Origin: a virus
Reading direction: 5' to 3' (one strand)
Virus record (IMG/VR): IMGVR_UViG_3300017767_000061
Location: 1 to 32,077 of that record
Length of the DNA: 32,077 bases
Made by a program: the position numbers and the translations under genes
The notes under the pieces: model-generated
What the model saw: the letters and a program-made list of their open reading frames with translations, nothing else
Databases searched by the model: none
What the model was told of the DNA's origin: nothing
Part shown: positions 1-32,077 of the stretch, one piece after another
Position numbering within the stretch: position 1 is the first letter of the stretch
Layout of the letters: each line of letters begins with the position of its first letter

Positions 1-1163
1 GAAAGAAGAGCGTCTAATAATATTTGGTCGCTAACTGTTTTTGGATATTCAGGCTCTTTAAAGTCTAATTTTAGCTTGTCAGGCAACGAAATATTGTTAT
101 AAGCAGCAATTTCTTTCTCAATATAGTAAATTTCATGCTCATACATACGCCAAAGCTCTAAATCGTCTTGATAATCTTCAAATCTCTCTAAATCTTTGAT
201 TTTTAAGGCAATGCCCGAAGGAGTTTCTCCTCCATCTTGTGCAAATTGCACATATAAGTGGTTATTTTGTGCTACTAAGTCTACTTGGAACTTTATATTC
301 TCAATAACTGACTCAATGTTACCTGCGGGAGATACAATTCCAAAAGTTGCACCCTCAGGAAGGTCTATTATTTGGTCTGAACCTGCTCTTTCAATTCTTT
401 TGTCAGAATCTACCCCTGTCATAAAAGGTTGTCCAAACATTTGAAACCTTAACCCTAATTGCATTTCTGTCATAGCAATATTGACTTGCTCATTACAATC
501 TACAATGTCGTTAGCTCCGTCTACAAAAAATTCATCTATTTGTTCTTCTCTATGAGTAAAAACAAATGGTAAAATTCCATATCCATGTTCATATTCATCT
601 ATAATGTTACCATCTTCGTCATAATGTATATAAACAGACTCATCCCAATAAGCCCATTCGCACTTTTCGATATAAGAAATATCATCAGGTTGCATTAATA
701 AAGGATACATAATAGCAGAAGGAGTAAATGGGTCTTTTAAATGAACATCAAAGTAATAAACAGGTCTGTAGTCAAAATACGGCATGCCATTTACTTCTTT
801 GTATATTATTTGAGTCGCTACAGTTCCCATTAATCGAGTCATTCTTTCAACATGCTTCATTCTAGCATCTTTTTTAATGGTAAGTAAATCATATTGTTTA
901 TTTACATTACGATTTGCACCTACTGTATAGATTCTGCTCATTTTATTTACAAACCTTCTAGTAAAATTCGCATTATAGCATGGTATTTCTTTAAAAGCAT
1001 CTGCTGAAAAATAATCTTGAATATAATTATACGTTCCATTGCCTCCATAATAATTAAGCATTTTTCTGACCCAATCTCTTCTTTTCTGTTGGTTTGATTG
1101 TTTTGCTTCTTTTACTGATTGTGCTATTATTTCTTCAACTGTCATTTTTGAATCGTATATCAT
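1..1163 (-). CDS. phage portal protein (partial, C-terminus beyond window)
   Basis: The minus-strand frame is open from the ATG at 1163 to the left edge (387 complete codons, no stop), so the C-terminus is missing. A portal forms the dodecameric ring at the capsid vertex through which DNA is packaged and to which the tail attaches. The call rests on position directly downstream of the large terminase, on length, and on portal-like features: an N-terminal helical region ending in a FTRRFVNKMSRIYT segment, then a mixed region (YYFDVHLKDP, VFTHREEQIDEF), then a long helical stretch with VAQNNHLYVQFAQ, where portal stems usually lie. The start is supported by GAGGACAAG upstream and by the ATGA overlap with the terminase stop. 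Family-level identity (SPP1 gp6-like or other) is not certain; portal as the function is likely. Confidence 0.8.
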   Translation of the reverse strand, partial: MIYDSKMTVEEIIAQSVKEAKQSNQQKRRDWVRKMLNYYGGNGTYNYIQDYFSADAFKEIPCYNANFTRRFVNKMSRIYTVGANRNVNKQYDLLTIKKDARMKHVERMTRLMGTVATQIIYKEVNGMPYFDYRPVYYFDVHLKDPFTPSAIMYPLLMQPDDISYIEKCEWAYWDESVYIHYDEDGNIIDEYEHGYGILPFVFTHREEQIDEFFVDGANDIVDCNEQVNIAMTEMQLGLRFQMFGQPFMTGVDSDKRIERAGSDQIIDLPEGATFGIVSPAGNIESVIENIKFQVDLVAQNNHLYVQFAQDGGETPSGIALKIKDLERFEDYQDDLELWRMYEHEIYYIEKEIAAYNNISLPDKLKLDFKEPEYPKTVSDQILLDALL

Positions 1164-2473
1164 CTTGTCCTCACTTTAAATTCTCTGTTTTTAATCGGGA
1201 ATTGGTTTATAAAAAAATATCTTATCATATCACATCCATGGTCGTTATATCCATCTTTTACAGGCTCAGGCTTTAAGTCAGTTCCTTCTTTTGGCTCAGG
1301 ATAGCGATAGTTTTCTAAGTCTACCATTATTCCTGTGCATTTTTCATCAACATGAAAATATCTTTCTCCTTGAGCATTTTCTATAAAGCTTCTAACATGA
1401 GATATACCTGAAGCAACACTTCTTGAAGCTTTATCTCTTCTAGTATTAACTACTATCCCATGCTTTCTAAAAATTTCTATATCTCCTAATCCTGATTGCC
1501 CTTGAGCTTGCATACCTGCGGGGTCTCCGTAATATTTTAGGACATTATATCTTTTTGCCTTAATTTTTAAGGCTAATTCATCTGTTTTTACGTTTTTTTT
1601 ATGTACTATCTCATCTATCATGTTTATATGCCAAATACCACCTACTCTATGAAGCTGAAACCATCCTACCGCAGGCATCCTATACCCAAAATCTATAGAG
1701 CAAAAAGTAGGAAAGTTTGGATTGTAAGAATAATTACCTACATCTAATTCTCTTTCAAAAGGGTAAACTCTGCCTGCAAAAGAAGTAAACTTAGCCCCAT
1801 ATTCTTGGTCATACACTTCTTTGTCCATATTTCTCTTTCTTTCAACTAGAAATACGTCTTTTTTCCCTTCAGGGAAGGCATAATGGTTATCCCATGATGG
1901 AGCTTGATGTGATTCCCATAGTTCATCATCTTTTCCTAGTAAAAATAAATCATAAACCCAATTAAACCCTTCAGGTGTAGTAATAAAAATTGCTTTCCCT
2001 TTTCTATCCGATAAAGTTGGAGAAAGATACATATCCCATATTTTTTTCTTAACTTTTGCTGCTTCATCAATAATAAGCAAGTCAAGCCCCTCACCAACTA
2101 AAGAATCAGGGTTATCTGCTGATTTAGCTTCAACTACTGTGCCCCATTTAAATTTTATATATCTTTCTTTTTCAGAGGCTCTTACAATATCATCTTTATG
2201 TCCGACAACCATAGTTTGCCATATTTCTCTAAACATCAAATCTGCTTTATCGTAAGACAATCCAACTAGCCATATTCTTTTATTAGGTTGAGAAGCATAA
2301 AAAGTAGCTTCCATAGCAGAAGCAGTAGTTTTACCAAATCTCCTTCCGCATACCATGACAAAAAACCTTGCTGTATTTTTTTCGGGGTAATGTAATTTAC
2401 TTTGACCAAAATGCGGCTTATAGCCCATAAAGTCAAACCATTTTTCTTTGTAGTTTTTAATTGATTTATTCAA
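1160..2473 (-). CDS. terL: terminase large subunit
   Basis: ATP-driven DNA packaging motor and nuclease, 437 residues. Walker A GRRFGKTT lies at residues 43-50, the Walker B run LDLLIIDEAA ends near residue 139 with the catalytic Glu at 137, and an ITTPEG coupling motif follows near 164-169. The RNase H-like nuclease domain starts at about residue 258; its acidic residues are D261 (SIDFGY), D317 (YYGDPAG) and D411/D415 (YNDHGCDMIRY). The annotated start is TTG with no Shine-Dalgarno at normal spacing; an ATG at 2483 preceded by AAGG lies one frame away and would give only five codons. The first in-frame ATG is residue 16 (MGYKPHFGQ), just before the conserved phage terminase N-terminus. No small terminase is visible in the window. 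It is transcribed away from the capsid genes, which is less usual than one head operon. Confidence 0.95.
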   Translation of the reverse strand: MNKSIKNYKEKWFDFMGYKPHFGQSKLHYPEKNTARFFVMVCGRRFGKTTASAMEATFYASQPNKRIWLVGLSYDKADLMFREIWQTMVVGHKDDIVRASEKERYIKFKWGTVVEAKSADNPDSLVGEGLDLLIIDEAAKVKKKIWDMYLSPTLSDRKGKAIFITTPEGFNWVYDLFLLGKDDELWESHQAPSWDNHYAFPEGKKDVFLVERKRNMDKEVYDQEYGAKFTSFAGRVYPFERELDVGNYSYNPNFPTFCSIDFGYRMPAVGWFQLHRVGGIWHINMIDEIVHKKNVKTDELALKIKAKRYNVLKYYGDPAGMQAQGQSGLGDIEIFRKHGIVVNTRRDKASRSVASGISHVRSFIENAQGERYFHVDEKCTGIMVDLENYRYPEPKEGTDLKPEPVKDGYNDHGCDMIRYFFINQFPIKNREFKVRTR

Positions 2474-2571
2474 AAATTTGCATTATTACCTTATATTAAT
2501 TTAAGTTATATATAAGAATTATGCAAAATTAAGCATAATTGATATAGTTTTAATATAAAAAGGAGGACAGT
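2474..2571. promoter_or_regulatory. divergent control region with 8-bp inverted repeat
   Basis: Intergenic segment between terminase (leftward) and scaffold (rightward). It holds a perfect inverted repeat, AATTATGC at 2517-2524 and GCATAATT at 2533-2540, separated by the 8-nt spacer AAAATTAA. The flanks are AT-rich with TATAAG- and TTGATA-like hexamers, but no well-spaced -35/-10 pair stands out. A strong Shine-Dalgarno AGGAGGAC lies before 2572. An operator or promoter shared by the two head transcription units is the simplest reading; this is inference. Confidence 0.5.
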
Positions 2572-3181: not shown

Positions 3182-4048
3182 ATGGCTAATTTAGACATAA
3201 CAACAGGGGCAAATTTTATCCCCGAATTATGGGCTGACCCAATTTATAAATTCTATCAAGAAACTAACAAATTATCAGGGGCAGTTGATGATTATTCAGC
3301 TCTTGTAAAAGGAGCAGGAGATACTGTGCATATTCCAAAAATTGCACTCAAAGCTCCTGTAGCAAAAGTTAAATCAACAATAGTTGATTTTAGCACAGCC
3401 GCAACAGCAGGTAAGGTAGATTTAACTATAGATAAACATTATGTCGTTCCTGAATTATTTGAAGATATGGCATTAGTTCAAAGTAGTTCTGACCTTATGG
3501 GCAAATACACTAAAATGATGGGAGAATCTATAGCTCGTCAAGTGGAAAGCGACATGTGGGGAGAATTAGATGGATTTCAAACAAGAACAGATGTAAATGG
3601 TAATAATGAATGTAATGCTACTACTTTAGAGTCTATCCTTGCAACTTTATATTCAATAGATATTGACCCTAATAACTGTTCTTTTGTTGTAAATAATCTT
3701 ATATTGGCAGACATCATGAATCCAAGTAGTGGTATCAGTCAATATTTTATTAGACAAGATGCAGTTGGAAATGGTCAAGGGTTGAAAACAGGTGCAGTTG
3801 GCTTAATGTATGGGATGGATGTATTTCATAGTGCAGCTATTCCTACTGCTACTACTAATGACCTTGCTGTTGGTGCAGTCTTTCCAAAAGATGCTTGTGT
3901 TTTTGCAGCTCAACAAGATGTGAGAGTGCAATCTCAATACGATATTGCATATCTTGGTACTAAAGTTACCGCAGACATAATCTATGGAATGAAGTTAGTA
4001 GATGAGTCAGGTGATTTAAGAGGATTAAACTTAGTTAATCTTGGTTAA
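3182..4048 (+). CDS. major capsid protein
   Basis: A 288-residue protein that would form the icosahedral shell. It begins MANLDITTGANFIPELWADP, followed by an N-terminal region typical of HK97-fold coat proteins lacking a long delta domain (YKFYQETNKLSGAV, GDTVHIPKIA), then VVPELFEDMALVQSS and a helix MGESIARQVESDMWGEL that matches the spine-helix region. The C-terminal half carries NCSFVVNNLILADIM, a typical P-domain helix, and the closing part has VRVQSQYDIAYLGTKVTADIIYGMKL, common at the end of this coat-protein group. Position after the scaffold gene and before a strong hairpin terminator supports the assignment. It has a good AAGGAG ribosome site. No cleaved prodomain is apparent. Confidence 0.92.
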   Translation: MANLDITTGANFIPELWADPIYKFYQETNKLSGAVDDYSALVKGAGDTVHIPKIALKAPVAKVKSTIVDFSTAATAGKVDLTIDKHYVVPELFEDMALVQSSSDLMGKYTKMMGESIARQVESDMWGELDGFQTRTDVNGNNECNATTLESILATLYSIDIDPNNCSFVVNNLILADIMNPSSGISQYFIRQDAVGNGQGLKTGAVGLMYGMDVFHSAAIPTATTNDLAVGAVFPKDACVFAAQQDVRVQSQYDIAYLGTKVTADIIYGMKLVDESGDLRGLNLVNLG

Positions 4049-4067: not shown

Positions 4068-4095
4068 ATAAGGGGTAGGGAAACTTACCCCTTAT
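4068..4095 (+). terminator. hairpin after the capsid gene
   Basis: A perfect 10-bp stem, ATAAGGGGTA (4068-4077) with TACCCCTTAT (4086-4095), and an 8-nt loop lie 19 nt downstream of the capsid stop. There is no long U-tract (only TATTATAA follows), so it may be a leaky terminator or an mRNA 3'-end stabiliser that keeps capsid message abundant. The next gene starts 17 nt later. Confidence 0.7.
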
Positions 4096-4111
4096 TATAA
4101 CGGGAGAATTT

Positions 4112-4279
4112 ATGATATATTTAAAAAATAAAAAAAGTGGTCAGGTTAAAGAATATAAAGATGGAAATACAGAAACAGTAGAAGATTTGTTAGCTACAGG
4201 TAATTGGTCTAAAGTAACAGGTCGTAGAGATTGGACTGCTTATTCTGCCCCTAAAAAAACTAAAAAAAAGTCTAAGTAA
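4112..4279 (+). CDS. small conserved-looking hypothetical protein (55 aa)
   Basis: Short reading frame starting MIYLKNKKSGQVKEYKDGNT and ending in a lysine-rich tail. It has a plausible GGGAGAA ribosome site and its TAA overlaps the next ATG (TAATG), so it is translationally coupled. The W-S-K and D-W segments and the basic tail suggest a small globular or nucleic-acid/virion-associated protein, but I do not recognise a family. Its place between the capsid hairpin and the lysozyme gives no clear function. Confidence 0.7.
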   Translation: MIYLKNKKSGQVKEYKDGNTETVEDLLATGNWSKVTGRRDWTAYSAPKKTKKKSK

Positions 4280-4455
4280 TGTCTAAAAAAGTTATTCGTA
4301 AAAAAGGCGACCTAACAGGAGCAGGAAAAGGGGATTGGTACAGAGTAAACCAATGTGATGAACAGTACAAAAAAAATTACGACAAAATATTTGGAAAAAA
4401 GAATATGCTTGTTGAAAATAAAATAATATCTAATGAGCTTAATAAAAAAAATTAA
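4279..4455 (+). CDS. small hypothetical protein (58 aa)
   Basis: Begins MSKKVIRKKGDLTGAGKGDW and is basic throughout. The start shares bases with the preceding stop, and the gene overlaps the lysozyme start by 23 nt, consistent with a compact coupled trio. The G-D-W-Y-R-V stretch is distinctive, but I can assign no function. No signal peptide or membrane segment is visible. Confidence 0.65.
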   Translation: MSKKVIRKKGDLTGAGKGDWYRVNQCDEQYKKNYDKIFGKKNMLVENKIISNELNKKN

Positions 4456-4843
4456 ACAACATGAAGGCTTTAAGTCTACTGTCTATCAATGCACAGAAGG
4501 ATATGACACTATCGGATATGGTTTTGCTATAAAAGATTTAAAGATAGATGAAGATATAGCAGAATTAATTCTTATTCGTAAGCTAGGAGATTTACAAGAC
4601 AGAATATCTCATGCGTTTGAATGGTTTGATAGTGCTAATGAAACTGTAAGAGATGTTGTAATAAACATGTGCTATCAACTTGGGATTTCAGGTTTTTCTA
4701 AATTTAAAAAAACAATCTATTACTTAGAAACAGAACAATACGAAGAAGCTTCTATAGAAATGCTAGATAGTCTTTGGCATAAACAAACCCCAAATAGAAG
4801 TAAAGAGCTAAGCGAAGAGATTAAAGCTCTAGCCTCAAATTAG
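4433..4843 (+). CDS. endolysin, T4-type lysozyme (GH24)
   Basis: 136-residue muramidase that would cleave peptidoglycan at the end of infection. It lines up along its length with T4 lysozyme: HEGF with the catalytic Glu11, TEGYDTIGYG with Thr26, INMCYQLG around residues 79-86, and WHKQTPNRSKEL near the end, matching the conserved W-x-x-Q-T-P-N-R-A motif of T4. The position equivalent to Asp20 of T4 lysozyme is Cys20 here; the GH24 triad is known to tolerate Cys there. It has no signal peptide or N-terminal signal-anchor helix, so release should need a holin; the small membrane proteins at 7388 and 7712 are candidates. It is shorter than T4 lysozyme (164 aa) at the C-terminus. The gene starts inside its upstream neighbour. 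Confidence 0.93.
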   Translation: MSLIKKIKQHEGFKSTVYQCTEGYDTIGYGFAIKDLKIDEDIAELILIRKLGDLQDRISHAFEWFDSANETVRDVVINMCYQLGISGFSKFKKTIYYLETEQYEEASIEMLDSLWHKQTPNRSKELSEEIKALASN

Positions 4844-4859
4844 GAAATTTAACTTTTCT

Positions 4860-4874
4860 ATACTAAATTAGTAT
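4860..4874. repeat. 15-nt inverted repeat upstream of the phosphoesterase gene
   Basis: ATACTAA at 4860-4866 and TTAGTAT at 4868-4874 are perfect complements around a single A. They sit in the 51-nt gap before the gene at 4895. This may be an operator or a small promoter element; no convincing -35/-10 pair is seen. The arms are entirely AT-rich apart from one G/C each, so chance is possible. Confidence 0.35.
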
Positions 4875-4894
4875 CAAAAATACAAGGAAAATTT

Positions 4895-5674
4895 ATGCCT
4901 TTAAAGGATAAAGGAGCAGTTAAGCGAGCAATCGTAACTCCTGACAAGCATTTTCCAATACATGACCAAAAAGCTATAAATGTTGTATGCAAAGCTATTG
5001 AGAAGGTAAAGCCTGACATATACATTGACCTAGGTGATACAGGCGAATGGGAGCATTTTAGCACTCATTATTGGAAGGGTAGAAATGCAAAACCTATGGA
5101 AGATTTAATTCCGCTCTTAGATAAAGATGTAAAAGCTGTAAATAAAGGAATGAATCAAATAGATAGGTCTTTAAATAAAGTAAATTGTAATGAAAGGCAT
5201 TTTGTCCAAGGAAACCATGAAGTATGGTTAGATAAATTTGCAACTAGATACCCTTACTTAGACAATTACATGACAGAAAATGCTTTAAAAATCAAAGAAA
5301 GAGGATATGAATACCATCCTTATAATAGAAAGAAGACTCTTAAAATAGGAAAGCTTAACTTTACTCATGGTAAGTTTACTTCTAAGTACCATTCATTTAA
5401 GCACTTGGATGTATACGGAGAAAGTATAATGTATGGACATACTCACGATTTACAAAGGCATACAAAAACTTATGCAGGGGGAACTATTAGTGCTTGGAGT
5501 CTAGGATGCTTAAAAGACATTGAAGAAGATGAAGATTGGCTAAGAGGAAGCTTAACTAATTGGAATCATGGATTTGCAATAGTAGATTTTTATAAAAACG
5601 GCAATTTTAACGTACAGGTTGTTGAAATAATTAAAGGCAAAACAAGTTTATGGGGAGAGTTAATTGAAGGATGA
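4895..5674 (+). CDS. calcineurin-like metallophosphoesterase
   Basis: 259 residues with the ordered metal-binding motifs of the family: D17-x-H19 (TPDKHF), G47-D48 (DLGDTGEW), GNHE at 106-109, H158 in THGK, and GHTH at 181-184. The fold coordinates two metal ions and hydrolyses phosphoesters; phage members are variously thought to act on nucleotides, DNA ends or RNA, and the substrate cannot be read from sequence. It lies in the accessory cluster between lysozyme and a membrane protein, and its stop overlaps the next start (ATGA), so it is co-expressed with late genes rather than with the replication operon. That points away from a simple replication role. The C-terminal WSLGCLKD and WNHGFAIVDFYKNG strands are typical of phage members. 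Confidence 0.9.
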   Translation: MPLKDKGAVKRAIVTPDKHFPIHDQKAINVVCKAIEKVKPDIYIDLGDTGEWEHFSTHYWKGRNAKPMEDLIPLLDKDVKAVNKGMNQIDRSLNKVNCNERHFVQGNHEVWLDKFATRYPYLDNYMTENALKIKERGYEYHPYNRKKTLKIGKLNFTHGKFTSKYHSFKHLDVYGESIMYGHTHDLQRHTKTYAGGTISAWSLGCLKDIEEDEDWLRGSLTNWNHGFAIVDFYKNGNFNVQVVEIIKGKTSLWGELIEG

Positions 5675-22846: not shown

Positions 22847-22847
22847 A

Positions 22848-24609: not shown

Positions 24610-24611
24610 GC

Positions 24612-25007: not shown

Positions 25008-25008
25008 A

Positions 25009-25182
25009 CTATGACCAAAAACTTTTATATAACTTCAATGCTTCAGACTTTTTTCTTGCATGTTTTTTCGATTGTATATTTCTGCACGTTCTACACAGTT
25101 TTCTATATCCTCCTACTGAGTATTTTATTCTTTCTGTTCCTTCTATTTTCTTTTTGCATTTATTGCAGATTAGTTCATTCAT
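25009..25182 (-). CDS. small zinc-ribbon-like protein (57 aa)
   Basis: Starts MNELICNKCKKKIEGTERIK and has two C-x-x-C pairs, C6/C9 and C30/C33, as in zinc ribbons. The C-terminal half is strongly basic (CRNIQSKKHARKKSEALKL). An AAGGAG site with good spacing precedes the ATG, and its stop lies one base before the next start. A compact nucleic-acid-binding role is likely. Unlike an HNH endonuclease it has no visible catalytic His-Asn-His set. Confidence 0.75.
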   Translation of the reverse strand: MNELICNKCKKKIEGTERIKYSVGGYRKLCRTCRNIQSKKHARKKSEALKLYKSFWS

Positions 25183-25191
25183 ATATACTCC

Positions 25192-25539
25192 TTAACATTT
25201 ATTATTTTTTGAAAGCCTAGTTATAGTTTCTGTTAGCTCTTTCTTATCTTTAACTTCGCATAGCCAATCTTCAAGTCTCATAATTATAAAACTATTACCA
25301 TTATTTTCTCTAACAACTTGAGCATCTACTTCTTCTGTTGGTAGAATCCATTTAGCTATAGCTTTTCTTATTTTAGCTTGAATTGTCCAATCTTCTATAA
25401 TTAAATCAACTTCCTGAGCTAACCCCATAGAGCGACCATCTGAACCCCAACATCTTTTAGAATCTAATCCATACATGTTAGCTAGCTTTACTATTTCTCT
25501 TTCGTACTTATTACCTTTTATTTTACTTGGATGTGTCAT
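25192..25539 (-). CDS. Holliday-junction-resolvase-like nuclease (115 aa)
   Basis: PD-(D/E)xK fold pattern: GNKYEREIVKLAN (conserved Glu), GSDGRSMGLAQEVDLIIED (conserved Asp in V-D-L) and TIQAKIRK, where the usual E-x-K is Q-x-K as in several phage resolvases. The frame extends to an upstream start at 25611, but the ATG at 25539 is chosen because AGGGAG lies at ideal spacing before it and the protein there begins directly before the conserved helix (MTHPSKIKGNKYERE). This leaves a 17-nt overlap with the upstream gene. Such enzymes resolve branched DNA before packaging, fitting the ERF gene upstream in the operon. Confidence 0.8.
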   Translation of the reverse strand: MTHPSKIKGNKYEREIVKLANMYGLDSKRCWGSDGRSMGLAQEVDLIIEDWTIQAKIRKAIAKWILPTEEVDAQVVRENNGNSFIIMRLEDWLCEVKDKKELTETITRLSKNNKC

Positions 25540-25759
25540 TAAGACTCCCTTCTCTTTTTTTAATTCTCCAATTTTTACTTCCATAACATTCTCTATAAAC
25601 GCAATCCTCACATACTTTTTTAAAATACTTAGGCGTGTACCCTTCTACATAACTATGCCCCCGATATTCGTACATTTTAGCGTTTTTATGGTTATTACAC
25701 ATTTCACAACGAAAGTGTATTCTTGTCTCTACTACTTTAACGATTCTAGGCTTCAACAT
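25523..25759 (-). CDS. zinc-ribbon protein (78 aa)
   Basis: C18-x-x-C21 (FRCEMCNN) and C50-x-x-C53 (KVCEDCVYRE) form a probable zinc ribbon, with a further Cys at 58. The C-terminus is basic (GSKNWRIKKREGS). It overlaps the gene upstream by 14 nt and the resolvase gene downstream. This is the second zinc-ribbon protein within 800 bp, but the two do not align outside the Cys pairs. A DNA- or RNA-binding helper of the replication operon is likely; nothing more can be said. Confidence 0.75.
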   Translation of the reverse strand: MLKPRIVKVVETRIHFRCEMCNNHKNAKMYEYRGHSYVEGYTPKYFKKVCEDCVYRECYGSKNWRIKKREGSLNDTSK

Positions 25760-25994
25760 TAATCAACGAGCTCATTGCTAACAGAAATTTCTTATACTTA
25801 ACGTCTTCTACGTCTGTAAACTCTGAATCTCCTCCAAGCTCTACGTATCTTTGTAAGCAGTTTCCTACTAAGGTCGGTGTTATTATTGTGTTTTTTGATA
25901 ATTCTGATTTCTCTCCTATTCCTTTTTCATAATAGTGTTTAAGTCTGATTCTATACGATTCTAATATAAAATCGTGTGCGGTTACTTTTTCCAT
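25746..25994 (-). CDS. hypothetical early protein (82 aa)
   Basis: Begins MEKVTAHDFILESYRIRLKH, with an AAAGGAATAC ribosome site, and is predicted mainly helical. No motif is recognised. It stands directly behind the structured 5' leader at 26028-26095, so it may be the gene that leader controls. It overlaps the zinc-ribbon gene downstream. Confidence 0.7.
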   Translation of the reverse strand: MEKVTAHDFILESYRIRLKHYYEKGIGEKSELSKNTIITPTLVGNCLQRYVELGGDSEFTDVEDVKYKKFLLAMSSLINVEA

Positions 25995-26027
25995 GTATTC
26001 CTTTCAAATGAGATACCCTTAATTTAA

Positions 26028-26095
26028 AGGGAGGTGGAACAAAAAAGGCGAAAGAGTCCTTTTTACTAATGCCTCACGACAATTAGCACCTCCCT
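26028..26095 (-). ncRNA. structured 5' leader with SD/anti-SD-like stem
   Basis: A perfect 9-bp helix (positions 26028-26036 with 26087-26095, minus strand AGGGAGGTG with CACCTCCCT) encloses 50 nt. Within it, AAAAAGG (minus 26064-26058) can pair with CCTTTTT (minus 26048-26042) around 9 nt. Downstream, CCCTT of the 3' arm can instead pair with AAGGG at 26016-26020, an alternative fold. The 5' arm looks like a Shine-Dalgarno and the 3' arm like the anti-SD end of 16S rRNA. It may be a cis-regulatory switch or a processing site before the gene at 25994. Confidence 0.5.
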
Positions 26096-26101
26096 AATTA
26101 T

Positions 26102-26287
26102 TTACGTGTTCTTTTTAAAATCTTCTATTTGCTCTAAGGTTTTTTCAGCTATGCCTTGCGAATCTCCATATTTATATACAGCATTTAAACCTTCCATTGA
26201 AATTTTTATAACGCTTTCTAAATATGAAACCCTTTCGTCAAGCTCTTCTATCTTTTTAAACATTATATCTTCCATTATTTTATCCAC
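26102..26287 (-). CDS. small coiled-coil protein (61 aa)
   Basis: GTG start at 26287 preceded by AAAAGGTGG, or ATG at 26275 that overlaps the upstream stop (TAATG); the two cannot be separated from sequence. The product is a charged helix with heptad spacing (FKKIEELDERVSYLESVIKI). It is followed by the structured leader at 26028-26095. Possibly an accessory factor for the replication protein encoded just upstream; function unknown. Confidence 0.65.
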   Translation of the reverse strand: MDKIMEDIMFKKIEELDERVSYLESVIKISMEGLNAVYKYGDSQGIAEKTLEQIEDFKKNT

Positions 26288-26754
26288 CCACCTTTTTTTA
26301 ATATGTCTTGTATTTCTTCCTCACTAGCAACATCTTCGCTATTCTCTTCATAATATTGCTTTTGTTTTTTTATTTGTCTTTCAACTCTTGCGTCAGAATC
26401 ATAACTACTTTCGTTAGCACCACTATAAGCTAACGACTTAGATGAAGCTAACCAATTATTACAAAATCTTTTAAAATCTTTTTTAGCTTTTGACCTGTTA
26501 GATAGAAGCCAAGCTCTAGCTTTTTCAAGTTCAGCTTTTATATCAGAAACATTAGGGTGTGCTCTCGCCCACATCTTTATTAAATCTTCAGGTACATTAT
26601 CAAAAAACTTATTAACTCTATCTTCGTAAGGGTCAATCATTTTGCCTTTGTAGTTTATTCTACTATACTCTTTCAACATATAGTTAAACCACTTCTCAGC
26701 ACTAACCCATTTCTCTTCTCCGTTTTGTCTAACTCTAATTTCGTGAAACATCAT
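26275..26754 (-). CDS. replication-protein-like gene (159 aa)
   Basis: Residues about 55-105 carry VPEDLIKMWARAHPNVSDIK, then AELEKARAWLLSNRSKAKKD, then FKRFCNNWLAS. This W-x-x-x-H-P-x-V-x-x-x-x-E-L-x-K-A-x-x-W-L-x-x-N...F-x-x-N-W-L pattern is the C-terminal module of many phage replication initiation or helicase-loader proteins. The N-terminus (EIRVRQNGEEKWVSAEKWFN) is unusual and there is no winged-helix part visible, so this may be a short accessory version. Start ATG-ATG with AAGGAG upstream. It is followed by a region with two small genes and preceded by a strong terminator. Confidence 0.6.
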   Translation of the reverse strand: MMFHEIRVRQNGEEKWVSAEKWFNYMLKEYSRINYKGKMIDPYEDRVNKFFDNVPEDLIKMWARAHPNVSDIKAELEKARAWLLSNRSKAKKDFKRFCNNWLASSKSLAYSGANESSYDSDARVERQIKKQKQYYEENSEDVASEEEIQDILKKGGWIK

Positions 26755-26793
26755 GTTCTTTTCTCCTTTATAATTTACTACGAGCTAACAGAT

Positions 26794-26824
26794 AAAAAAA
26801 AGGGAGAGCATCCGACACTCTCCC
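26794..26824 (-). terminator. intrinsic terminator (leftward)
   Basis: On the minus strand GGGAGAG (26824-26818) pairs with CTCTCCC (26808-26802) around a 9-nt loop, followed by eight U residues (26801-26794). This is a canonical Rho-independent terminator placed after the SSB-like gene, splitting the leftward early operon into an upstream part (28884-26842) and a downstream part (26754-24612). Confidence 0.9.
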
Positions 26825-26841
26825 CTTCTTCCTCCTCCAAT

Positions 26842-27099
26842 TTAAAATGGAATTTCCTCTTTGTCAAACTCAGCGACACTTGAGGTGCTTGTGTTTGAAG
26901 AGTCTCCCTCCTTAACATAAGGTTTATCTAGTTTTACTTTTAAATACTTATCTCCTTTTTTAGAAGTATTTACCCAACAAGAAGCATCTTTCTCAACTCC
27001 TTCTACAAGGCACTTACCTCTGAAATGAGGATGTGCATCTTTTGTTTTATAACTGTTCTTGAATAAAACTATTTCATTATTCTTTAGCTCTATAGCCAT
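26842..27099 (-). CDS. SSB-like DNA-binding protein with acidic IPF tail (85 aa)
   Basis: Short beta-rich protein beginning MAIELKNNEIVLFKNSYKTK, with a central stretch (FRGKCLVEGVEKDASCWVNT; GDKYLKVKLDKPYV) and a flexible Ser/Thr-rich linker ending in EFDKEEIPF. The last residues copy the acidic D/E-rich, I-P-F tip of bacterial SSB proteins, which recruits repair and replication partners. The core is small for a full OB fold and resembles the DUF736-type pattern. It follows the ERF gene two genes downstream, so it may supply or partner single-stranded DNA for annealing. Confidence 0.7.
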   Translation of the reverse strand: MAIELKNNEIVLFKNSYKTKDAHPHFRGKCLVEGVEKDASCWVNTSKKGDKYLKVKLDKPYVKEGDSSNTSTSSVAEFDKEEIPF

Positions 27100-27123
27100 T
27101 TTCTTTCTCCTTATTTATTTTTT
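27097..27123 (-). repeat. 27-nt repeated translation-start spacer, copy 1
   Basis: This 27-nt segment, covering the start codon of the SSB-like gene and its AAGGAG ribosome site, is identical to 27433-27459 before the next gene upstream. It extends exactly from the start codon to the preceding stop codon in both cases. It looks like a duplicated ribosome-binding spacer inside the early operon. Confidence 0.8.
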
Positions 27124-27435
27124 TTAAACAACTCTCCAAACCCTAACTGCACTTGGTCGATTAGATTTTCCTGACAATGTTCTAATGGTAAATCTTTTTC
27201 CGTTAGCTCTTTTTGATTGCTTTGCATTTAAAGAATAAATATGTTTTCTTGCACTATCCATATTTATGTTTGGTGTTTCTCTAGTCATTACAAAGCTTTC
27301 TCCAACTTCCATGTAGTTCATAAACTCCATTCTAATTGAATAATCAACTCCTATATGCCTCCTAGAGTCAGGCAATGGAATGTTCTTGTCTATAGTTATT
27401 CCATTTAGTTCTACCGTTTCTACAACTGTTTGCAT
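27124..27435 (-). CDS. hypothetical early protein (103 aa)
   Basis: Begins MQTVVETVELNGITIDKNIP; contains YMEVGESFVMTRETPNINMD and ends with FTIRTLSGKSNRPSAVRVWR. The I-P-x-P...M-x-V-G-E-S-F...F-T-x-R...R-V-W-R order is a widespread small-protein pattern in marine phage recombination/replication operons, possibly DUF7303-like. Its role is unknown. It sits between ERF and the SSB-like protein and shares an identical ribosome-binding spacer with the latter. Confidence 0.75.
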   Translation of the reverse strand: MQTVVETVELNGITIDKNIPLPDSRRHIGVDYSIRMEFMNYMEVGESFVMTRETPNINMDSARKHIYSLNAKQSKRANGKRFTIRTLSGKSNRPSAVRVWRVV

Positions 27436-27459
27436 TTTCTTTCTCCTTATTTATTTTTT
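27433..27459 (-). repeat. 27-nt repeated translation-start spacer, copy 2
   Basis: Identical in all 27 positions to 27097-27123. It covers the start codon of the gene at 27435, the AAGGAG site, and the A/T-rich spacer back to the ERF stop codon. Confidence 0.8.
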
Positions 27460-27940
27460 ATATACCTAAGTCTTCATCACTAATAGGTTCTACTTTTTTA
27501 TTCCTGTTCTTCGGCGATATTCTGTTAGCGTCATCATCAGGCTCTGTTGCTATTCCTAATATAGAAGCAAGCCCATATCTTCTTCCGTATGTGCAAGCAC
27601 TACCAACGGCTTGTGCATTTGGATTTTCGCCTAGGGGTATTCTTACCTCAGTACGAATCCATTGACCCGAAGCATGCAACAATGTAGTAGTTACATAAAA
27701 CCCGTCAGTTTTAACACAGAAATTATTACCCTGTGTAATTGCTAAATCATGTTTTACTAACAAAGGTCTTACCTCTATTAGTATATCGTTAATATCAGCA
27801 TAATTAGAATTGAAAAAAGGATTAACATTGTTTTTCTTAACAGAGCAAGTTTCTGCTTGAAACTTAACTAAGCCTTTTGTTATCTCTGTTATGTCTTCTG
27901 ATTTCCATTCGTTTGCTTTAATATTTTCGTATTCGCTCAT
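27458..27940 (-). CDS. erf: ERF-family single-strand annealing recombinase
   Basis: 160 residues with the family landmarks: NPFFNSNYADINDILIEVRP (34-57 region), LLVKHDLAITQ, TTTLLHASGQWIRTEVRIP, NAQAVGSACTYGRRYGLASI and LGIATEPDDDAN. ERF proteins (type P22 Erf) anneal complementary single strands and drive phage recombination and circularisation. The C-terminal 25 residues are charged and end in SDEDLGI, possibly an interaction tail. It overlaps the upstream stop by the ATGA motif. The nearby SSB-like protein and resolvase-like nuclease make a coherent recombination set. No partner 5'-3' exonuclease is visible in the window. Confidence 0.93.
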   Translation of the reverse strand: MSEYENIKANEWKSEDITEITKGLVKFQAETCSVKKNNVNPFFNSNYADINDILIEVRPLLVKHDLAITQGNNFCVKTDGFYVTTTLLHASGQWIRTEVRIPLGENPNAQAVGSACTYGRRYGLASILGIATEPDDDANRISPKNRNKKVEPISDEDLGI

Positions 27941-28134
27941 TTGACCCCTTCCATTTTTTGTAGTTTTGATTTATAACTTTTTGTTCTTCTCGTAAGCTTA
28001 AAATCTTCATGGTTCATTAATTCCCAAACAATTTGCTTGTCTACTTCTCTCAATTCCCTGTATGCTTTTCGATTTAAAAATGCTAACAGGTCAAAAGGTA
28101 TTTTTATAGTAAGCTCTGTCATTTCTTCTTTCAT
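27937..28134 (-). CDS. ribbon-helix-helix-like protein (65 aa)
   Basis: A strand E-L-T-I-K-I-P is followed by two helices (FDLLAFLNRKAYRELREVDK and QIVWELMNH), the Arc/MetJ-type ribbon-helix-helix order, then a basic tail (TRRTKSYKSKLQKMEGVK). Its ATG overlaps the upstream stop (ATGA) and its own stop overlaps the ERF start. It could be a DNA-binding regulator of the operon. The motif is short, so family confidence is moderate. Confidence 0.65.
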   Translation of the reverse strand: MKEEMTELTIKIPFDLLAFLNRKAYRELREVDKQIVWELMNHEDFKLTRRTKSYKSKLQKMEGVK

Positions 28135-28235
28135 TTTTGCTCCTTCTTTTTTTTAAATCCAAATATATCATCAAAGATAGACAAAACTTCTTTTCTAGAT
28201 ACTTTTTGAATTTTTTTGTTCTTTTTATTTTTCAT
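28131..28235 (-). CDS. 34-residue basic peptide gene
   Basis: MKNKKNKKIQKVSRKEVLSI begins a very short frame whose ATG overlaps the upstream TAA (TAATG) and whose TGA overlaps the downstream ATG (ATGA). This double coupling supports real translation, though it may act mainly to pass ribosomes through the operon. Composition is basic, with a short hydrophobic patch (VLSIFDDIFGF). Confidence 0.5.
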   Translation of the reverse strand: MKNKKNKKIQKVSRKEVLSIFDDIFGFKKKKEQK

Positions 28236-28390
28236 TACAGTCCTATCTTATTTAATCTTTTGTGAGCTTGATATTTAGTATCGTTATCTAAGTCATCAAA
28301 GTAGTCCATTAAGATATTATAAGCTTCTTGATATTTAAGTAGTTCCATCAGATGTTTATCTTTATCTACTATTTGCTTTACTTTAGCCAT
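28235..28390 (-). CDS. hypothetical early protein (51 aa)
   Basis: Begins MAKVKQIVDKDKHLMELLKY and is predicted helical and charged (YNILMDYFDDLDNDTKYQAH). Its stop overlaps the next start (TAATG), and it begins 4 nt after the XRE gene stop. Ribosome site AAGAGAGAT is moderate. No domain recognised. Confidence 0.65.
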   Translation of the reverse strand: MAKVKQIVDKDKHLMELLKYQEAYNILMDYFDDLDNDTKYQAHKRLNKIGL

Positions 28391-28393
28391 TAT

Positions 28394-28624
28394 TTATCTC
28401 TCTTCTTTATTTATTTTATAAGTCATTTTAAATTGAATGTTTGGAAATAAGTCAATCATTCTACAGTTTAATATTTGAGCTAACATTTTAAGCCTTTCCC
28501 TAGTAGGAGTCCTACCCCCTGAAATCCATTGAGAAATCTCTGTATTATGACAACCAATCTTGTTAGCTATAAATTTGTTTTTTAAACCACTTTTTTGTAT
28601 ATACTGCTTTATATTATTAGACAT
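28394..28624 (-). CDS. XRE/Cro-type HTH regulator (76 aa)
   Basis: A helix-turn-helix domain fills residues about 5-60: IQKSGLKNKFIANKIGCHNT, then EISQWISGGRTPTRERLKML, then AQILNCRMIDLFP. The I-A-x-x-x-G-x-x-x-x-x-I-S-x-W-x-x-G-x-R-x-P pattern is typical of lambda Cro-like and plasmid control proteins. It is the second gene of the early operon, so it may act as an early repressor or Cro-like switch. No adjacent divergent repressor is seen. Its start shares bases with the upstream stop. Confidence 0.88.
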   Translation of the reverse strand: MSNNIKQYIQKSGLKNKFIANKIGCHNTEISQWISGGRTPTRERLKMLAQILNCRMIDLFPNIQFKMTYKINKEER

Positions 28625-28884
28625 TATGCTTCTCCTCCTCTTGAATTTTTAACATATTTTAAGATAGATGATACATCAAAATCTAATTCGTCTCCTTCAT
28701 CAAGATTTACGTCTAAATCACTAGCCGTTTTCTTTATTACATACATAGATAAATCAAACCCTAGCTTTATACCTCTCATTAAGCTTGGGAGCTCGTCTAA
28801 TGGCGTACTTTTAAAAGCTTCAGTAATTGATTTCTCTTTTTGTTTCAGTATTCTTGACGCAAACTTTTTTGATTTCTTCTCCAA
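28624..28884 (-). CDS. first gene of the early operon, hypothetical (86 aa)
   Basis: TTG start at 28884 backed by an ideal AAGGAGGT site six nucleotides upstream. Basic N-terminus (MEKKSKKFASRILKQKEKSI), a helical centre (PSLMRGIKLGFDLSMYVIKK), then an acidic stretch (DLDVNLDEGDELDFDV). It directly precedes the XRE regulator and may be an antirepressor or partner, but no motif supports this. Confidence 0.7.
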   Translation of the reverse strand: MEKKSKKFASRILKQKEKSITEAFKSTPLDELPSLMRGIKLGFDLSMYVIKKTASDLDVNLDEGDELDFDVSSILKYVKNSRGGEA

Positions 28885-29040
28885 TTAAGACCTCCTTATA
28901 TAATTCTTTTAACAACAAAGTAATATTAATACTTATAATAGATATAATGCAAGTTTTTTTTAATAAATATGTAAAATAATATTATTTCTGCTCTGTAAAT
29001 AAATATAAGTTTTGTTTTTTATAAAATGTTTATTAAATTT
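28885..29040. promoter_or_regulatory. probable early promoter region
   Basis: Very AT-rich segment upstream of the early operon. For leftward transcription a TTGCAT hexamer (minus, near 28953-28948) with a 17-nt spacer to TTAATA is possible, and the operon's AAGGAGGT lies at 28892-28899. For rightward transcription TATAAT occurs at 28934-28939 and 28943-28948. The region holds no gene. Individual hexamers in AT-rich DNA are weak evidence. Confidence 0.4.
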
Positions 29041-29215
29041 ATAACGTTACATGGTTCGGTTTAAATCCTTTTGCGTGTAATAATAGTATAAAGTGGTTAC
29101 AAAAGGGGGTTGTATCAAAGCCACATAGTTAGAGCGAATATAATTAAACTAGATGCTACGAAGAATATTTCAGAAAGATAATTATACGAGGTAAATAAAT
29201 AAAGCTTATTTATCT

Positions 29216-29332
29216 TATCCCAACTCAAGTATAAACTCAGGGTGCAAATGGGGTAGAGCTAGCCTGTTATTATAAATATAACGGGGGTAGAAGAGCTCTA
29301 TCCTAATCTAAGTTAAAATCTAAGGTGCAAAT
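29216..29332 (+). repeat. pair of imperfect 34-nt direct repeats
   Basis: 29216-29249 and 29299-29332 match at about 24 of 34 positions, with identical ends (GGTGCAAAT; TATCC). Most differences are C/T or G/A exchanges. They flank the hairpin at 29251-29303 almost symmetrically; the second repeat shares bases with its closing stem. They could be iterons or duplicated parts of an RNA domain. Confidence 0.6.
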
Positions 29333-29347
29333 AATATGTATAATATT

Positions 29348-29371
29348 ATAATGCTTTTTATAATGCTTTTT
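29348..29371 (+). repeat. tandem 12-nt repeat
   Basis: ATAATGCTTTTT occurs twice without spacing (29348-29359, 29360-29371), followed by a partial AATAATG. It lies in the AT-rich part of the gene-free region. It may be an unwinding element of an origin or simple slippage. Confidence 0.6.
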
Positions 29372-29576
29372 AATAATGTAAAATATAAACTCTATTAATG
29401 ATAAATTTTCTTTAGCCGAGAAAAACTTGACCATGTTAATTAATTACTCTTCATTCAACCCCACACACTCGATTATAGTAATTGGTTAGCATGGTTAGGT
29501 AATCATGCAGGTGAAAACCTGAAAAACTTACTGATAACATATATTATGTCTAATTTTGTAAAAAATATTGGGTAAA

Positions 29577-29614
29577 AAAAAAGCCCAACTGAATTTCTTC
29601 AATCGGGCTTTTTT
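29577..29614. terminator. bidirectional intrinsic terminator
   Basis: AAAAAAGCCC (29577-29586) pairs with GGGCTTTTTT (29605-29614), extended inwards by TGAA with TTCA across two mismatches and a short loop. Runs of T on both strands make it functional in both directions: it would end the candidate plus-strand RNA and the leftward gene at 29624-29899. Confidence 0.85.
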
Positions 29615-29623
29615 ATCATAGTG

Positions 29624-29899
29624 CTAACTATGTATTCTTGTTTCTATTTTCATTTCATGTTGGCTTACAAAAAAACTTCTAGGAGCTAAATTTTCAAATT
29701 GAAGAGTAAATTCTTCATATTTGTTCATTGAGCTAACAATAAGTTTTCGCAAATCGTTTTTAGGTAGGTTTGTTACATCTAATTTTAAGATATAATTTAT
29801 TACAGATGTTATCGAACCAAAAGTTTCAACATCATGAACAAATTTATTATCTGTAAAATGCAATACGTAAATTGGAGCGTTAGCTAAATCTTTTCTCAT
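29624..29899 (-). CDS. hypothetical protein (91 aa)
   Basis: Begins MRKDLANAPIYVLHFTDNKF; mixed alpha/beta, with a helix VINYILKLDVTNLP and a strand-rich C-terminus. No motif recognised. Its ATG overlaps the upstream TAA (TAATG), and the terminator at 29577-29614 follows. It is the last gene of a two-gene unit with the coiled-coil protein upstream. Confidence 0.75.
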   Translation of the reverse strand: MRKDLANAPIYVLHFTDNKFVHDVETFGSITSVINYILKLDVTNLPKNDLRKLIVSSMNKYEEFTLQFENLAPRSFFVSQHEMKIETRIHS

Positions 29900-30495
29900 T
29901 ATGCTAAACCTCCTTTTGTGTCTTCTATGCCTATTTGAGCTAACGTAGTTTCAACAAATTTATCTACTAGCTCTTTAGCTCTACCTCTTATTAGCTCCTG
30001 ATTTTCTCCTGACTCTATATAATCATGGAACTCTTTATCTTCAGCGTCAATGTTTTTCATTAAATCTAAAAGATAATCAATGCAAAGCTCGTAAGTTTCT
30101 TGTTTGCCTTCAATTAGACCGCTTATATTTTTATCAACAAAAGATTTGAATTTTTCCATAGCTGAGAATGTTAGAGCTGAATCTATTATTTCTCCTTTGG
30201 AATTTTTTACTTCATTATCTTTTTCATCTACAAAAGCTAACTCAGCTTCTTTACAATCACTACTAAAACGTATAGCATTGTTCTCTTTCATTAAATCGGG
30301 ATATTTCACTCTAAGATTAGCAATAACGACTTCTCTGTGTGCGTTAGCTTTTTCTATAAGAGCATCAGATTTTTTTATAAGAACCATTGCTTTGCTTTGA
30401 ATTTTTTCAGCTTCGTCTAGTAATTTTTTAGATTTCTCTTCTGCTATTTTAGCTTCTTTTGCTATAAAGCTTGTGTCTATTTTTTTCGTTTTCAT
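29899..30495 (-). CDS. coiled-coil hypothetical protein (198 aa)
   Basis: Residues 1-65 form a long Lys/Ala/Glu coiled coil (KEAKIAEEKSKKLLDEAEKI). Residues 66-110 contain YPDLMKENNAIRFSSDCKEA, and the C-terminal half is helical (LCIDYLLDLMKNIDAEDKEF). No enzymatic motif. Ribosome site AAGGAGAAAT. A 168-nt gene-free leader with several hairpins (30516-30616) lies upstream. The role is unknown; helical scaffold-like or nucleic-acid-associated proteins of this size occur in early regions of marine phages. Confidence 0.75.
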   Translation of the reverse strand: MKTKKIDTSFIAKEAKIAEEKSKKLLDEAEKIQSKAMVLIKKSDALIEKANAHREVVIANLRVKYPDLMKENNAIRFSSDCKEAELAFVDEKDNEVKNSKGEIIDSALTFSAMEKFKSFVDKNISGLIEGKQETYELCIDYLLDLMKNIDAEDKEFHDYIESGENQELIRGRAKELVDKFVETTLAQIGIEDTKGGLA

Positions 30496-30515
30496 TTTAT
30501 TTCTCCTTAGTTTAT

Positions 30516-30616
30516 CGTGCTTATATGGTTAGCACGTTTGCCCCGCTCCAATTTTTCATGCGGACTTGCGACCGCCAAAGGTTTATTAAGGCAAGGGCGG
30601 GAATAAACACCGCCCT
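30516..30616 (-). ncRNA. GC-rich structured leader upstream of the gene at 30495
   Basis: In minus orientation: GGGCGG hairpin with CCGCCC (30615-30595, 9-nt loop), then TTGCC...GGCAA closing stem (30590-30594 with 30538-30542) enclosing GCGG-8nt-CCGC (30560-30575), then CGTGC-11nt-GCACG (30516-30536). The segment is clearly richer in G+C than the surrounding DNA. The ribosome site of the 198-residue gene follows. The arrangement looks like a folded 5' leader, a small RNA or a control element. Confidence 0.5.
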
Positions 30617-30663
30617 AAGATTAATAGGTAAGATAAGAGGAATTAAGGAAGGTAGCCAATATT

Positions 30664-31032
30664 TTATTTATAAGGGTCAAGTTTAGAATTAGGAATATTT
30701 TTCCATATTTTCTTATTAGAGACTTTAAGATTAATAGGCGGTAAGCCTAAACCTTTATTAATAGCTCCATCATCACTAGCCCAAGTTTTAATCATTCTAA
30801 CAATATTTTTATAATGATAATTTGGGTTATCGGAATGGTTAGCTGTTTCTAAAGAGTCTAATATTTTTTCAACATATCCATTTGTCAAATCAACAGAATA
30901 TACAACAGCATGACGCTGAGGGTTAGCTTCTGCTCTCATTTGCAATATAGACAGGTCAGCTTTGTCAATAGGTATAAAGCTTTCAACTCCATGACAATCA
31001 GCAATACCAACGAATCTTTTAGTTTTTTCCAT
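30664..31032 (-). CDS. hypothetical protein (122 aa)
   Basis: A longer frame reaches 31101, but the ATG at 31032 is preferred: it starts 1 nt after the upstream stop and the conserved-looking part begins there (MEKTKRFVGIADCHGVESFI). The pattern G-I-A-D-x-H-G-x-E-S...R-A-x-x-N-x-Q-R-H-A-V-V-Y is one I associate with a small-protein family of marine phages of unknown function. The C-terminus is basic (NKKIWKNIPNSKLDPYK). A CAGGAG site lies 11 nt upstream. The Asp/His pair could bind metal, which is speculation. Confidence 0.75.
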   Translation of the reverse strand: MEKTKRFVGIADCHGVESFIPIDKADLSILQMRAEANPQRHAVVYSVDLTNGYVEKILDSLETANHSDNPNYHYKNIVRMIKTWASDDGAINKGLGLPPINLKVSNKKIWKNIPNSKLDPYK

Positions 31033-31033
31033 A

Positions 31034-31210
31034 TTAGCACGCTCCTGTCTGATATGTTTTAAAGAATCTGTTAGCTTCATCTTTTCCGAAACGTTCTTCA
31101 ACTACATTACAAATTAAGCCAATCATATTATGACCAAATGTTGTACCTTGAATTTCTAGACATTTTAATTCTAGCTCTTCAAGAGTAGCTGTTTTTATGT
31201 TTGTTCTCAT
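31034..31210 (-). CDS. small hypothetical protein (58 aa)
   Basis: Begins MRTNIKTATLEELELKCLEI and continues with FGHNMIGLICNVVEERFGKD. It has a clear AGGAGAT ribosome site, and its TAA lies just before the next ATG. The L-x-x-K-C-L-E-I-Q-G-T-T...H-N-M-I-G stretch recurs in small early proteins of marine phages. It stands directly behind the structured leader 31232-31364, which may regulate it. Confidence 0.75.
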   Translation of the reverse strand: MRTNIKTATLEELELKCLEIQGTTFGHNMIGLICNVVEERFGKDEANRFFKTYQTGAC

Positions 31211-31231
31211 TATTATTATCTCCTGTATTTA

Positions 31232-31364
31232 TCGAGCGGAATTGCTCGAAATCTGTATTATAAAAATAGGAGGTCAGCGTATTTCTACGACGAGGAAATA
31301 GGATTAACCTCGCACTCTTGTCTAACCTCCTTCAATTTTCGGGAGCAAAAAATATAACGCTCCC
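31232..31364 (-). ncRNA. structured leader with three-way junction and GAAA tetraloop
   Basis: Reading the minus strand: hairpin GGGAGC-12nt-GCTCCC (31364-31341). Then a closing helix AGGAGGT with ACCTCCT (31331-31325 with 31274-31268) contains two arms, CGAGG-12nt-CCTCG (31312-31291) and CGTA-GAAA-TACG (31289-31278), the latter with a GNRA loop. Then TCGAGC-6nt-GCTCGA (31249-31232). The Shine-Dalgarno and ATG of the 58-residue gene follow at once. The GAAA loop occurs only in minus orientation, matching the gene direction. A new cis-acting RNA is likely; known riboswitch signatures are not recognised. Confidence 0.55.
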
Positions 31365-31380
31365 AAAATGAAAATTAACG

Positions 31381-31548
31381 TTAGCTCTTATTATTAACTC
31401 CGCTTATATAATTCATAAATTTCATATATAAATTAAATAAGTCCTCGCCAAACATCATTAATAATAATGCCCCATGATATAAACAACCTATTATACCGAC
31501 TGTAAACGCTAACGCTGTTATTGTGAAAACTATGACTTCAAATATCAT
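31381..31548 (-). CDS. small membrane protein (55 aa)
   Basis: Begins MIFEVIVFTITALAFTVGII, a long hydrophobic helix continuing through GCLYHGALLLMMF, then an amphipathic tail (LFNLYMKFMNYISGVNNKS). AGGAG lies nine nucleotides upstream of the ATG. Too short for confident classification; small phage membrane proteins may be holins, exclusion proteins or host-membrane modulators. It is followed by the hairpin at 31341-31364. Confidence 0.65.
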   Translation of the reverse strand: MIFEVIVFTITALAFTVGIIGCLYHGALLLMMFGEDLFNLYMKFMNYISGVNNKS

Positions 31549-31594
31549 TGTTTTTCTCTCCTATTTTATTTTCATTTATTAAGTTTTTTTTAAG

Positions 31595-31637
31595 TGGTCA
31601 GCGGGAGAATCGAACTCCCGCTTGCACCATGCTGACC
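31595..31637 (-). other. miniature tRNA-like element (acceptor stem plus T-arm only)
   Basis: On the minus strand: GGTCAGC (31637-31631), 11-nt connector, T-stem GGGAG (31607-31603 on plus is the same), loop TTCGATT (fits TTCRANY), CTCCC, then GCTGACC and A. The 7-bp acceptor stem pairs perfectly and the T-arm has the conserved G53-C61 pair, but there is no D-arm, no anticodon arm and no encoded CCA (CTT follows). Total 43 nt. It sits between the partial gene ending at 31644 and the small membrane protein gene. A decayed tRNA, an attachment-site remnant or a functional RNA mimic are all possible. Confidence 0.6.
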
Positions 31638-31643
31638 TGCATA

Positions 31644-32077
31644 TTAGCTTGTCAAATCTTTTATTACTTTACTAATATGTTGTACTTGCTCTGTTGCGTT
31701 TGTAGTATTACACCTTCCTATATTAAGATTAGAGCTAATAAGTTCGTTAAACTCTTCAGTAGGCTCACACGTCGAACCGTAAGGCTGACCGTATAAGACT
31801 CTTCTAATTTGGAAAGCGTACTTTCTAAACATTCCCGATAACGCTGTCATACCTAAAGCTCTTAGGTCTAAAGCGTCCTCGAAAGCTTTTATTGTAACGC
31901 TAATTGACGACTCGCTTTTGCCCGCAATTATATCTAGGTTGTTTGGAACTCCTATTGTAAAGTCATCATAAACATTTTTTAAATAACTTTTACTTACGCA
32001 ACTTTGACTGTTTGCTGTGCCTATGATTTCAACAGAATAACCTAAATTTTCTAGTATCTCTGTTGTGCAATAAGCTA
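31644..32077 (-). CDS. hypothetical protein, N-terminus beyond window (partial)
   Basis: The minus-strand frame is open from the right edge to the TAA at 31644, giving 143 complete codons; the start is outside, so a nested ATG at 31850 is not used as the start. Visible sequence: TTEILENLGYSVEIIGTANS, then NNLDIIAGKSESSISVTIKA, FEDALDLRALGMTALSGMFR and KYAFQIRRVLYGQPYG. The order L-x-x-x-G-Y-x-V-E-I...I-K-A-x-x-x-x-L-D-L-R-A-L...F-R-x-x-x-F recalls a phage family of unknown function (possibly DUF7192-like). The tRNA-like element begins 6 nt after its stop. Confidence 0.6.
   Translation of the reverse strand, partial: AYCTTEILENLGYSVEIIGTANSQSCVSKSYLKNVYDDFTIGVPNNLDIIAGKSESSISVTIKAFEDALDLRALGMTALSGMFRKYAFQIRRVLYGQPYGSTCEPTEEFNELISSNLNIGRCNTTNATEQVQHISKVIKDLTS

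Follow-up and report, generated by a model that had tools for sequence, protein, structure and literature searches.

Why should a phage genome of 32,077 bp contain not a single GATC? The question is raised by IMG/VR virus record IMGVR_UViG_3300017767_000061, analysed here from its first position to its last (the window), which encodes a terminase, a capsid protein, a tape-measure-like protein, an Erf annealing protein and a small repressor-like regulator. It is the near-complete genome of an uncultivated, probably marine phage, the marine origin being drawn from its relatives and a Pelagibacter-like capsid, and not from sample records. The original prediction took the absence of GATC, and apparently of GGCC, to be the footprint of escape from host enzymes of the Sau3AI/MboI and HaeIII types. 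Escape from restriction remains the best explanation, but this two-enzyme picture is too narrow, as at least ten words have been purged and the strongest of them is CCAG/CTGG. The genome has very probably been cleared of the words read by a number of restriction or restriction-like systems in its hosts, host endonucleases being the selecting agent.

Exact counting gave zero for GATC, GGCC, GCGC and CGCG alike, in agreement with the first reading of the sequence. For GATC, 94.9 copies are expected from base composition (about 100 had been estimated), 79.9 from a first-order Markov model, 79.4 from a dinucleotide shuffle of the window and 68.8 when the Markov model is of maximal order; a Markov check had been proposed at the outset. 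A stricter null, in which every protein was kept and synonymous codons were shuffled in 300 replicates, gave 61.8 ± 6.2 with a minimum of 45 (z = −10.0). As the absence persists under the Markov and synonymous-shuffle nulls, it cannot be put down to dinucleotide or trinucleotide usage, to codon usage or to the proteins encoded.

The most depleted word in the window had not been noted in that first reading. CCAG/CTGG, which is non-palindromic, occurs 0 times against 98.8 by synonymous shuffle (z = −11.9), and its expectation ranges from 99 to 119 over the null models. After correction for composition, GATC (0/62–95) and CCAG (0/99–119) thus both show the near-zero ratio of observed to expected that marks restriction-site avoidance. 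The case for GGCC is weaker from the window alone, the expectation falling from 21.3 by base composition (originally put at about 24) and 29.5 by first-order to 12.5 by maximal-order Markov, and to 8.0 by synonymous shuffle (z = −3.0), but it is confirmed by the clade to which the phage belongs, in which 94 contigs pooled hold 52 copies against 984 expected. GCGC is likewise missing (0 versus 13.7 by synonymous shuffle, z = −4.1); the absence of CGCG is weak evidence by itself, because just 4–6 copies are expected.

The list of avoided words does not end there. By synonymous shuffle, CACTG/CAGTG (CASTG) should occur 17.2 times and CATCG/CGATG 15.5 times (z = −4.3 for each), and both are absent, as are the palindromic hexamers CAATTG (13.4 expected), GTTAAC (9.0), CATATG (6.9) and GAATTC (6.3); GGNCC is also at 0, against 23 by first-order Markov. 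Exact counts and three null models therefore describe the whole of positions 1–32077 as a region free of GATC, CCAG/CTGG, GGCC, GCGC, CGCG, CASTG, CATCG/CGATG, GGNCC, GAATTC, CAATTG, CATATG and GTTAAC. Depletion short of absence is seen for CCGG (1/9.2) and GTSAC (2/12.6), for GGTGA (12 versus 33.6, all three by synonymous shuffle) and for GGNNCC (1 versus 11.7), beyond which a scan of gapped palindromes in the window found no strong word, GTNNAC and GTNAC being weak. Other words have not been purged: AGCT, TGCA, CATG and GTAC are present, as had been stated, AAGCTT, CCGC and GAGAC are retained, and GANTC stands at 106 against 88 expected. Run on T7 as a positive control, the same pipeline recovered the depletion of GATC and CCAGG in that phage.

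Most of the avoided words coincide with known Type II sites, namely GATC, GGCC, GCGC, CGCG, CCGG, GAATTC, CASTG, GTSAC and GGNCC; the main odd-length or asymmetric words of the clade (CASTG, GGWCC, GTSAC, GAGAC, CCGC and ACTGG) belong with them. CCAG and CATCG are the exceptions.

Comparison with relatives, which had also been proposed, separates the avoided words into two layers. Scans of IMG/VR with the capsid and terminase yielded a clade of about 94 distinct contigs. Pooled, their most depleted 4-mers are mainly palindromes, the lowest ratios of observed to expected being GGCC 0.05, GCGC 0.10, CGCG 0.10, CCGG 0.13, GATC 0.30 and CATG 0.37, followed by CCCG 0.40, CCGC 0.43, CTAG 0.46, TCGA 0.48 and CCAG 0.48; CACTG/CAGTG stands at 0.06 of expectation. 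GGCC, GCGC, CGCG, CCGG and CASTG are gone from nearly the entire clade, while GATC, CCAG, CATG and CTAG are lost patchily. On a tree of 90 terminase large subunits (TerL), built by a quick method and with many open forks, so that counts of state changes are approximate, GGCC and CASTG change state 2 times each, compared with at least 17 times for GATC, at least 10 for CCAG, at least 7 for CATG and at least 4 for CTAG. The purge of GGCC is thus almost clade-wide, whereas that of GATC is specific to particular lineages.

These switches in GATC and CCAG occur independently of relatedness, GATC being present in one contig and absent from another even where their TerL is identical. Across 84 contigs the GATC ratios are bimodal, with 26 at or below 0.02, 5 between 0.02 and 0.1, and the rest in a broad hump at 0.3–0.7, and within the single sample 3300030329 contigs run from 0/118 to 84/86 (observed/expected). 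A natural control inside the clade is provided by G040 (L086; L207, L208), of similar G+C, which keeps GGCC (38/39), GCGC (40/34), CGCG (21/23) and CCGG (35/26) while lacking GATC (0/83) and CCAG (0/136), and in which no methylase was found; since it retains these G+C-rich words, their loss elsewhere is not compositional. In G013, G018, G029 and G015 (L199–L202, L205–L206, L229–L230), several CpG-containing words are nearly all lost (ACGC, ACGG, ACGT and CCGC; in G015 ACCG, ACGG, CCGA and CGGA), which suggests that the pressure on CpG is of another kind, or wider, in those lineages.

Alignment with relatives indicates how such words could be lost. Where a relative carries a GATC one base away from the aligned window word, 155 of 183 such differences (85%) are synonymous; for CCAG/CTGG the figure is 503 of 534 (94%). 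This bias fits purging under protein constraint. An alternative means of protection, methylation by the phage itself, was not seen: as the original prediction held, no DNA methylase was found in the window with PF02086, PF00145, PF01555, PF05063 and motif regular expressions, nor was any methyltransferase seen in the 5.6-kb segment that closes the map (below), so that the sites would lack phage-encoded protection.

Relatives do carry methylases, scattered and of assorted kinds. Matches to PF00145 or PF01555 were obtained in 8 of 50 clade records, that in G023 falling below the curated cut-off and one record also having an MT-A70 match. Methylases of the C5, MT-A70 and N6/N4 types, one of them DNMT3-like, lie at L186:1492–2616, L186:877–1449, L187:1102–2016, L188:979–1902, L194:1447–2544, L195:1447–2106 and L196:1144–1755. 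Some carriers keep words that others have lost, with GATC at 84/86 and GGCC at 20/40 in G029, and CCGG at 15/16 in G004; nothing in word retention sets the carriers G018, G036 and G041 apart, and G007 and G040 both keep CCGG with no methylase found in either.

Because the words are mostly of Type II form, are eliminated almost completely, switch patchily among relatives and go with no recognisable phage methylase, avoidance of restriction is the best explanation. The purge would run mostly through synonymous codon choice, and incoming DNA offering no unmodified site to cut would survive with no need of a methylase of its own. One set of words (GGCC, GCGC, CGCG, CCGG, CASTG and others) may have been selected against in nearly all of the clade; a second (GATC and CCAG here; CATG, CTAG, CCGC or GAGAC in relatives) may reflect the particular hosts of each lineage, its words being lost and regained as hosts change. 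The repeated switching among relatives therefore points to the avoided words as a record of the cutting enzymes of their hosts.

Several observations weigh against this account. The alignments do not tell loss in word-free genomes from gain in relatives, and the zero conservation in the window of the GATC sites of relatives is a trivial consequence of the zero count. Methyltransferase-coding relatives show no clear regain of a matching word. The nearest relative by TerL, L023, encodes at 4076–5185 a fused protein: its N-terminal part is a helix-turn-helix (HTH) resembling a terminase small subunit (PF13022), its C-terminal part a methylase domain of the Dam family (PF05869, E = 1e-28). Yet L023 has just 1 GATC against 16 expected. 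A TerL profile search of GTDB genomes linked the clade to no host genome and to no restriction gene or methylome of a host. Finally, CCAG is asymmetric, whereas the best-documented cases of avoidance concern orthodox Type II sites (PMC6286503). In near-identical pairs such as L088 and G041 (99.5% identity, two GATC sites differing), regain in one is as possible as loss in the other. The only in-clade GTDB match, L102 (NHEP01000147.1) in the metagenome-assembled genome (MAG) of bacterium TMED88, was rejected as a host link, as it is probably misbinned, with 31% G+C against 51–59% in the sampled contigs of that MAG.

Other causes of word loss fare less well. Methyl-directed mismatch repair could counter-select GATC alone, either because rapidly replicating phage DNA is open to nicking by MutH at unmethylated GATC or because GATC-free phages gain from a raised mutation rate, the remaining words then needing separate causes. 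It has in its favour phiX174, which is fully without GATC and for which MutH-related counter-selection has been proposed (PMC5014478), and the strong GATC depletion of T7 in the same pipeline. Depletion in the window is, however, far from confined to GATC: MutH cannot account for CCAG/CTGG, GGCC, GCGC, CASTG, CATCG, GAATTC and the other words purged from the same genome, and contigs from a single clade, and from a single sample, differ in whether GATC is kept or lost, making this an unlikely cause. The notion that the phage must itself be site-free because its own sequence-specific nuclease degrades host DNA finds a candidate in a small RusA-like or PDDEXK-type open reading frame (ORF) at 25192–25611, but one small resolvase-like protein cannot explain at least ten specificities, and the avoided set differs between close relatives; we consider it highly improbable.

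That the pattern simply follows from base composition, codon usage or biased mutation is very unlikely; the idea can draw on the general scarcity of CpG words and the expectation of just 4–6 for CGCG. For GATC and CCAG it is refuted, with 69 (maximal-order Markov) and 62 (synonymous shuffle) copies of GATC still expected, z-scores of −10 and −12, respectively, and relatives of similar composition at expectation (GATC 84/86 in G029, GGCC 38/39 in G040). Nothing was found to support a library or assembly artefact, in which cleavage at GATC ahead of sequencing would have left uncut contigs alone, and it is very unlikely indeed, given that CCAG is equally missing, that sample 3300030329 yields both 84/86 and 0/118 for GATC, and that a separate contig, L238, agrees with the window at 99.97% over 10.4 kb.

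Within the pattern ascribed to host restriction, CCAG is the least ordinary part. To our knowledge no orthodox Type II enzyme reads this 4-base word, and CATCG can likewise be matched to no enzyme that we know of; in the literature searched, no paper treating CCAG as the site of an enzyme was found. In the methylome of a Sporosarcina strain, CCAG is among the partly modified motifs, at 30.9% (PMC5930826). The word tends to be lost together with GATC: of 81 contigs scored, 11 have lost both, 2 CCAG only, 15 GATC only and 53 neither, and over independent tree pairs GATC follows CCAG in an average of 4.9 and goes the opposite way in none (median p 0.06), an association that is suggestive, not proven. 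Its at least ten gains and lapses and this tendency to accompany the loss of GATC could tentatively be read as the trace of an undescribed but common marine bacterial defence that would read the asymmetric 4-base word CCAG and often be carried alongside a GATC system.

A variant of the restriction account, to which we give somewhat better but still less than even chances, is that the loss of CCAG/CTGG is the sum of separate specificities of the CCWGG, ACTGG, CCAGA and CCAGC types. Several relatives have lost just part of CCAGN: CCAGG alone in G034, G042 and G007; CCAGG and CCAGT in G015 and G025; CCAGA, CCAGG and CCAGT in G029, where CCAGC is at 48/32; and CCAGA and CCAGC in L055. A full purge of CCAG can therefore be assembled from several CCAGN specificities. 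Against this, in the window, G040, G027 and L041 all CCAG contexts are at zero together with no flank preference, for which a single 4-base specificity is simpler.

The map of the phage closes through the contig L238, which overlaps the right end of the window at 21647–32077 (99.97%, 10.4 kb) and its left end at 11–602 (100%), adding about 5.6 kb for a total of roughly 37.7 kb. In the closing segment GATC (0 versus 13.5) and CCAG (0 versus 16.7) are again absent, and GGCC has one copy; it codes for the end of the portal protein, a minor head-like protein, an HTH protein, an AAA_5 ATPase (L238:4099–5553) and then a DUF7192 protein (L238:5684–6625). The last completes the ORF cut at the right edge of the window (31644–32075, minus strand), assigned to DUF7192 by Pfam and adjoining the ATPase, and so links window end to start. 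At the left edge the portal ORF (3–1163, minus strand, continuing into L238:1–780) is named by its place next to TerL and found no cultured-phage match. TerL itself, the marker used for the tree, lies at 1160–2473 (minus strand; phrog_2, E = 1e-47; 76–88% identity across the clade), and is followed by the major capsid protein at 3182–4048 (plus strand; phrog_267, E = 3.5e-29), with distant matches to Pelagibacter phage capsids, and a probable tail tape-measure protein at 15213–17975 (plus strand; phrog_27166 and phrog_991, E = 1e-5 to 2e-4).

On the minus strand lie the ORF at 25192–25611, the sole nuclease candidate found in the window (phrog_244, E = 1.5e-7; PF24608 PDDEXK_15, E = 5e-4, below the curated cut-off), an Erf-like single-strand annealing protein at 27458–27940 (phrog_2324, E = 1.3e-41) and a small HTH repressor-like regulator at 28394–28624 (phrog_3 and phrog_8, E = 2e-9). 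No integrase turned up among the window proteins searched. Cultured phages resemble the window only distantly, in the capsid and terminase, and a search of them with the portal and two tail proteins gave no match.

Restriction-site avoidance is a known strategy of double-stranded DNA phages, with complete or almost complete elimination reported in about one-tenth of viral genomes (PMC6286503, Rusinov et al. 2018). The present genome shares this completeness; it differs from those cases in that many words are lost together, avoidance switches over about 90 relatives, and the strongest word is asymmetric. PhiX174 and T7 also have GATC absent or nearly so, and T7 is scarce in CCWGG too; mismatch repair is an alternative cause there (PMC5014478 for phiX174), whereas the window has been purged of many unrelated words as well. 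Closer in setting are subgroups of pelagiphages, a marine clade with subgroup-specific depletion of the methylated word GANTC (PMC9516812), though the words differ, GANTC is undepleted in the window, and its host is not known to be SAR11. In the same pipeline, the Pelagibacter phage HTVC026P (L239) gave a long purge list (GGCC, ACTGG, GGTGA, CCTTC and several palindromic hexamers) and the Helicobacter phage KHP30 few purged words. The list from the window is thus rich, but not unprecedented.

Site avoidance being itself known, the value of the material lies in a comparative set of about 90 close, uncultivated phage contigs with repeated natural switches, in which each contig would read as a list of the specificities of cleavage that its host lineage imposes. 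Such lists could predict the hosts of marine phages that have none assigned, show how fast sites disappear and return, and flag specificities, such as CCAG, that have no known matching enzyme.

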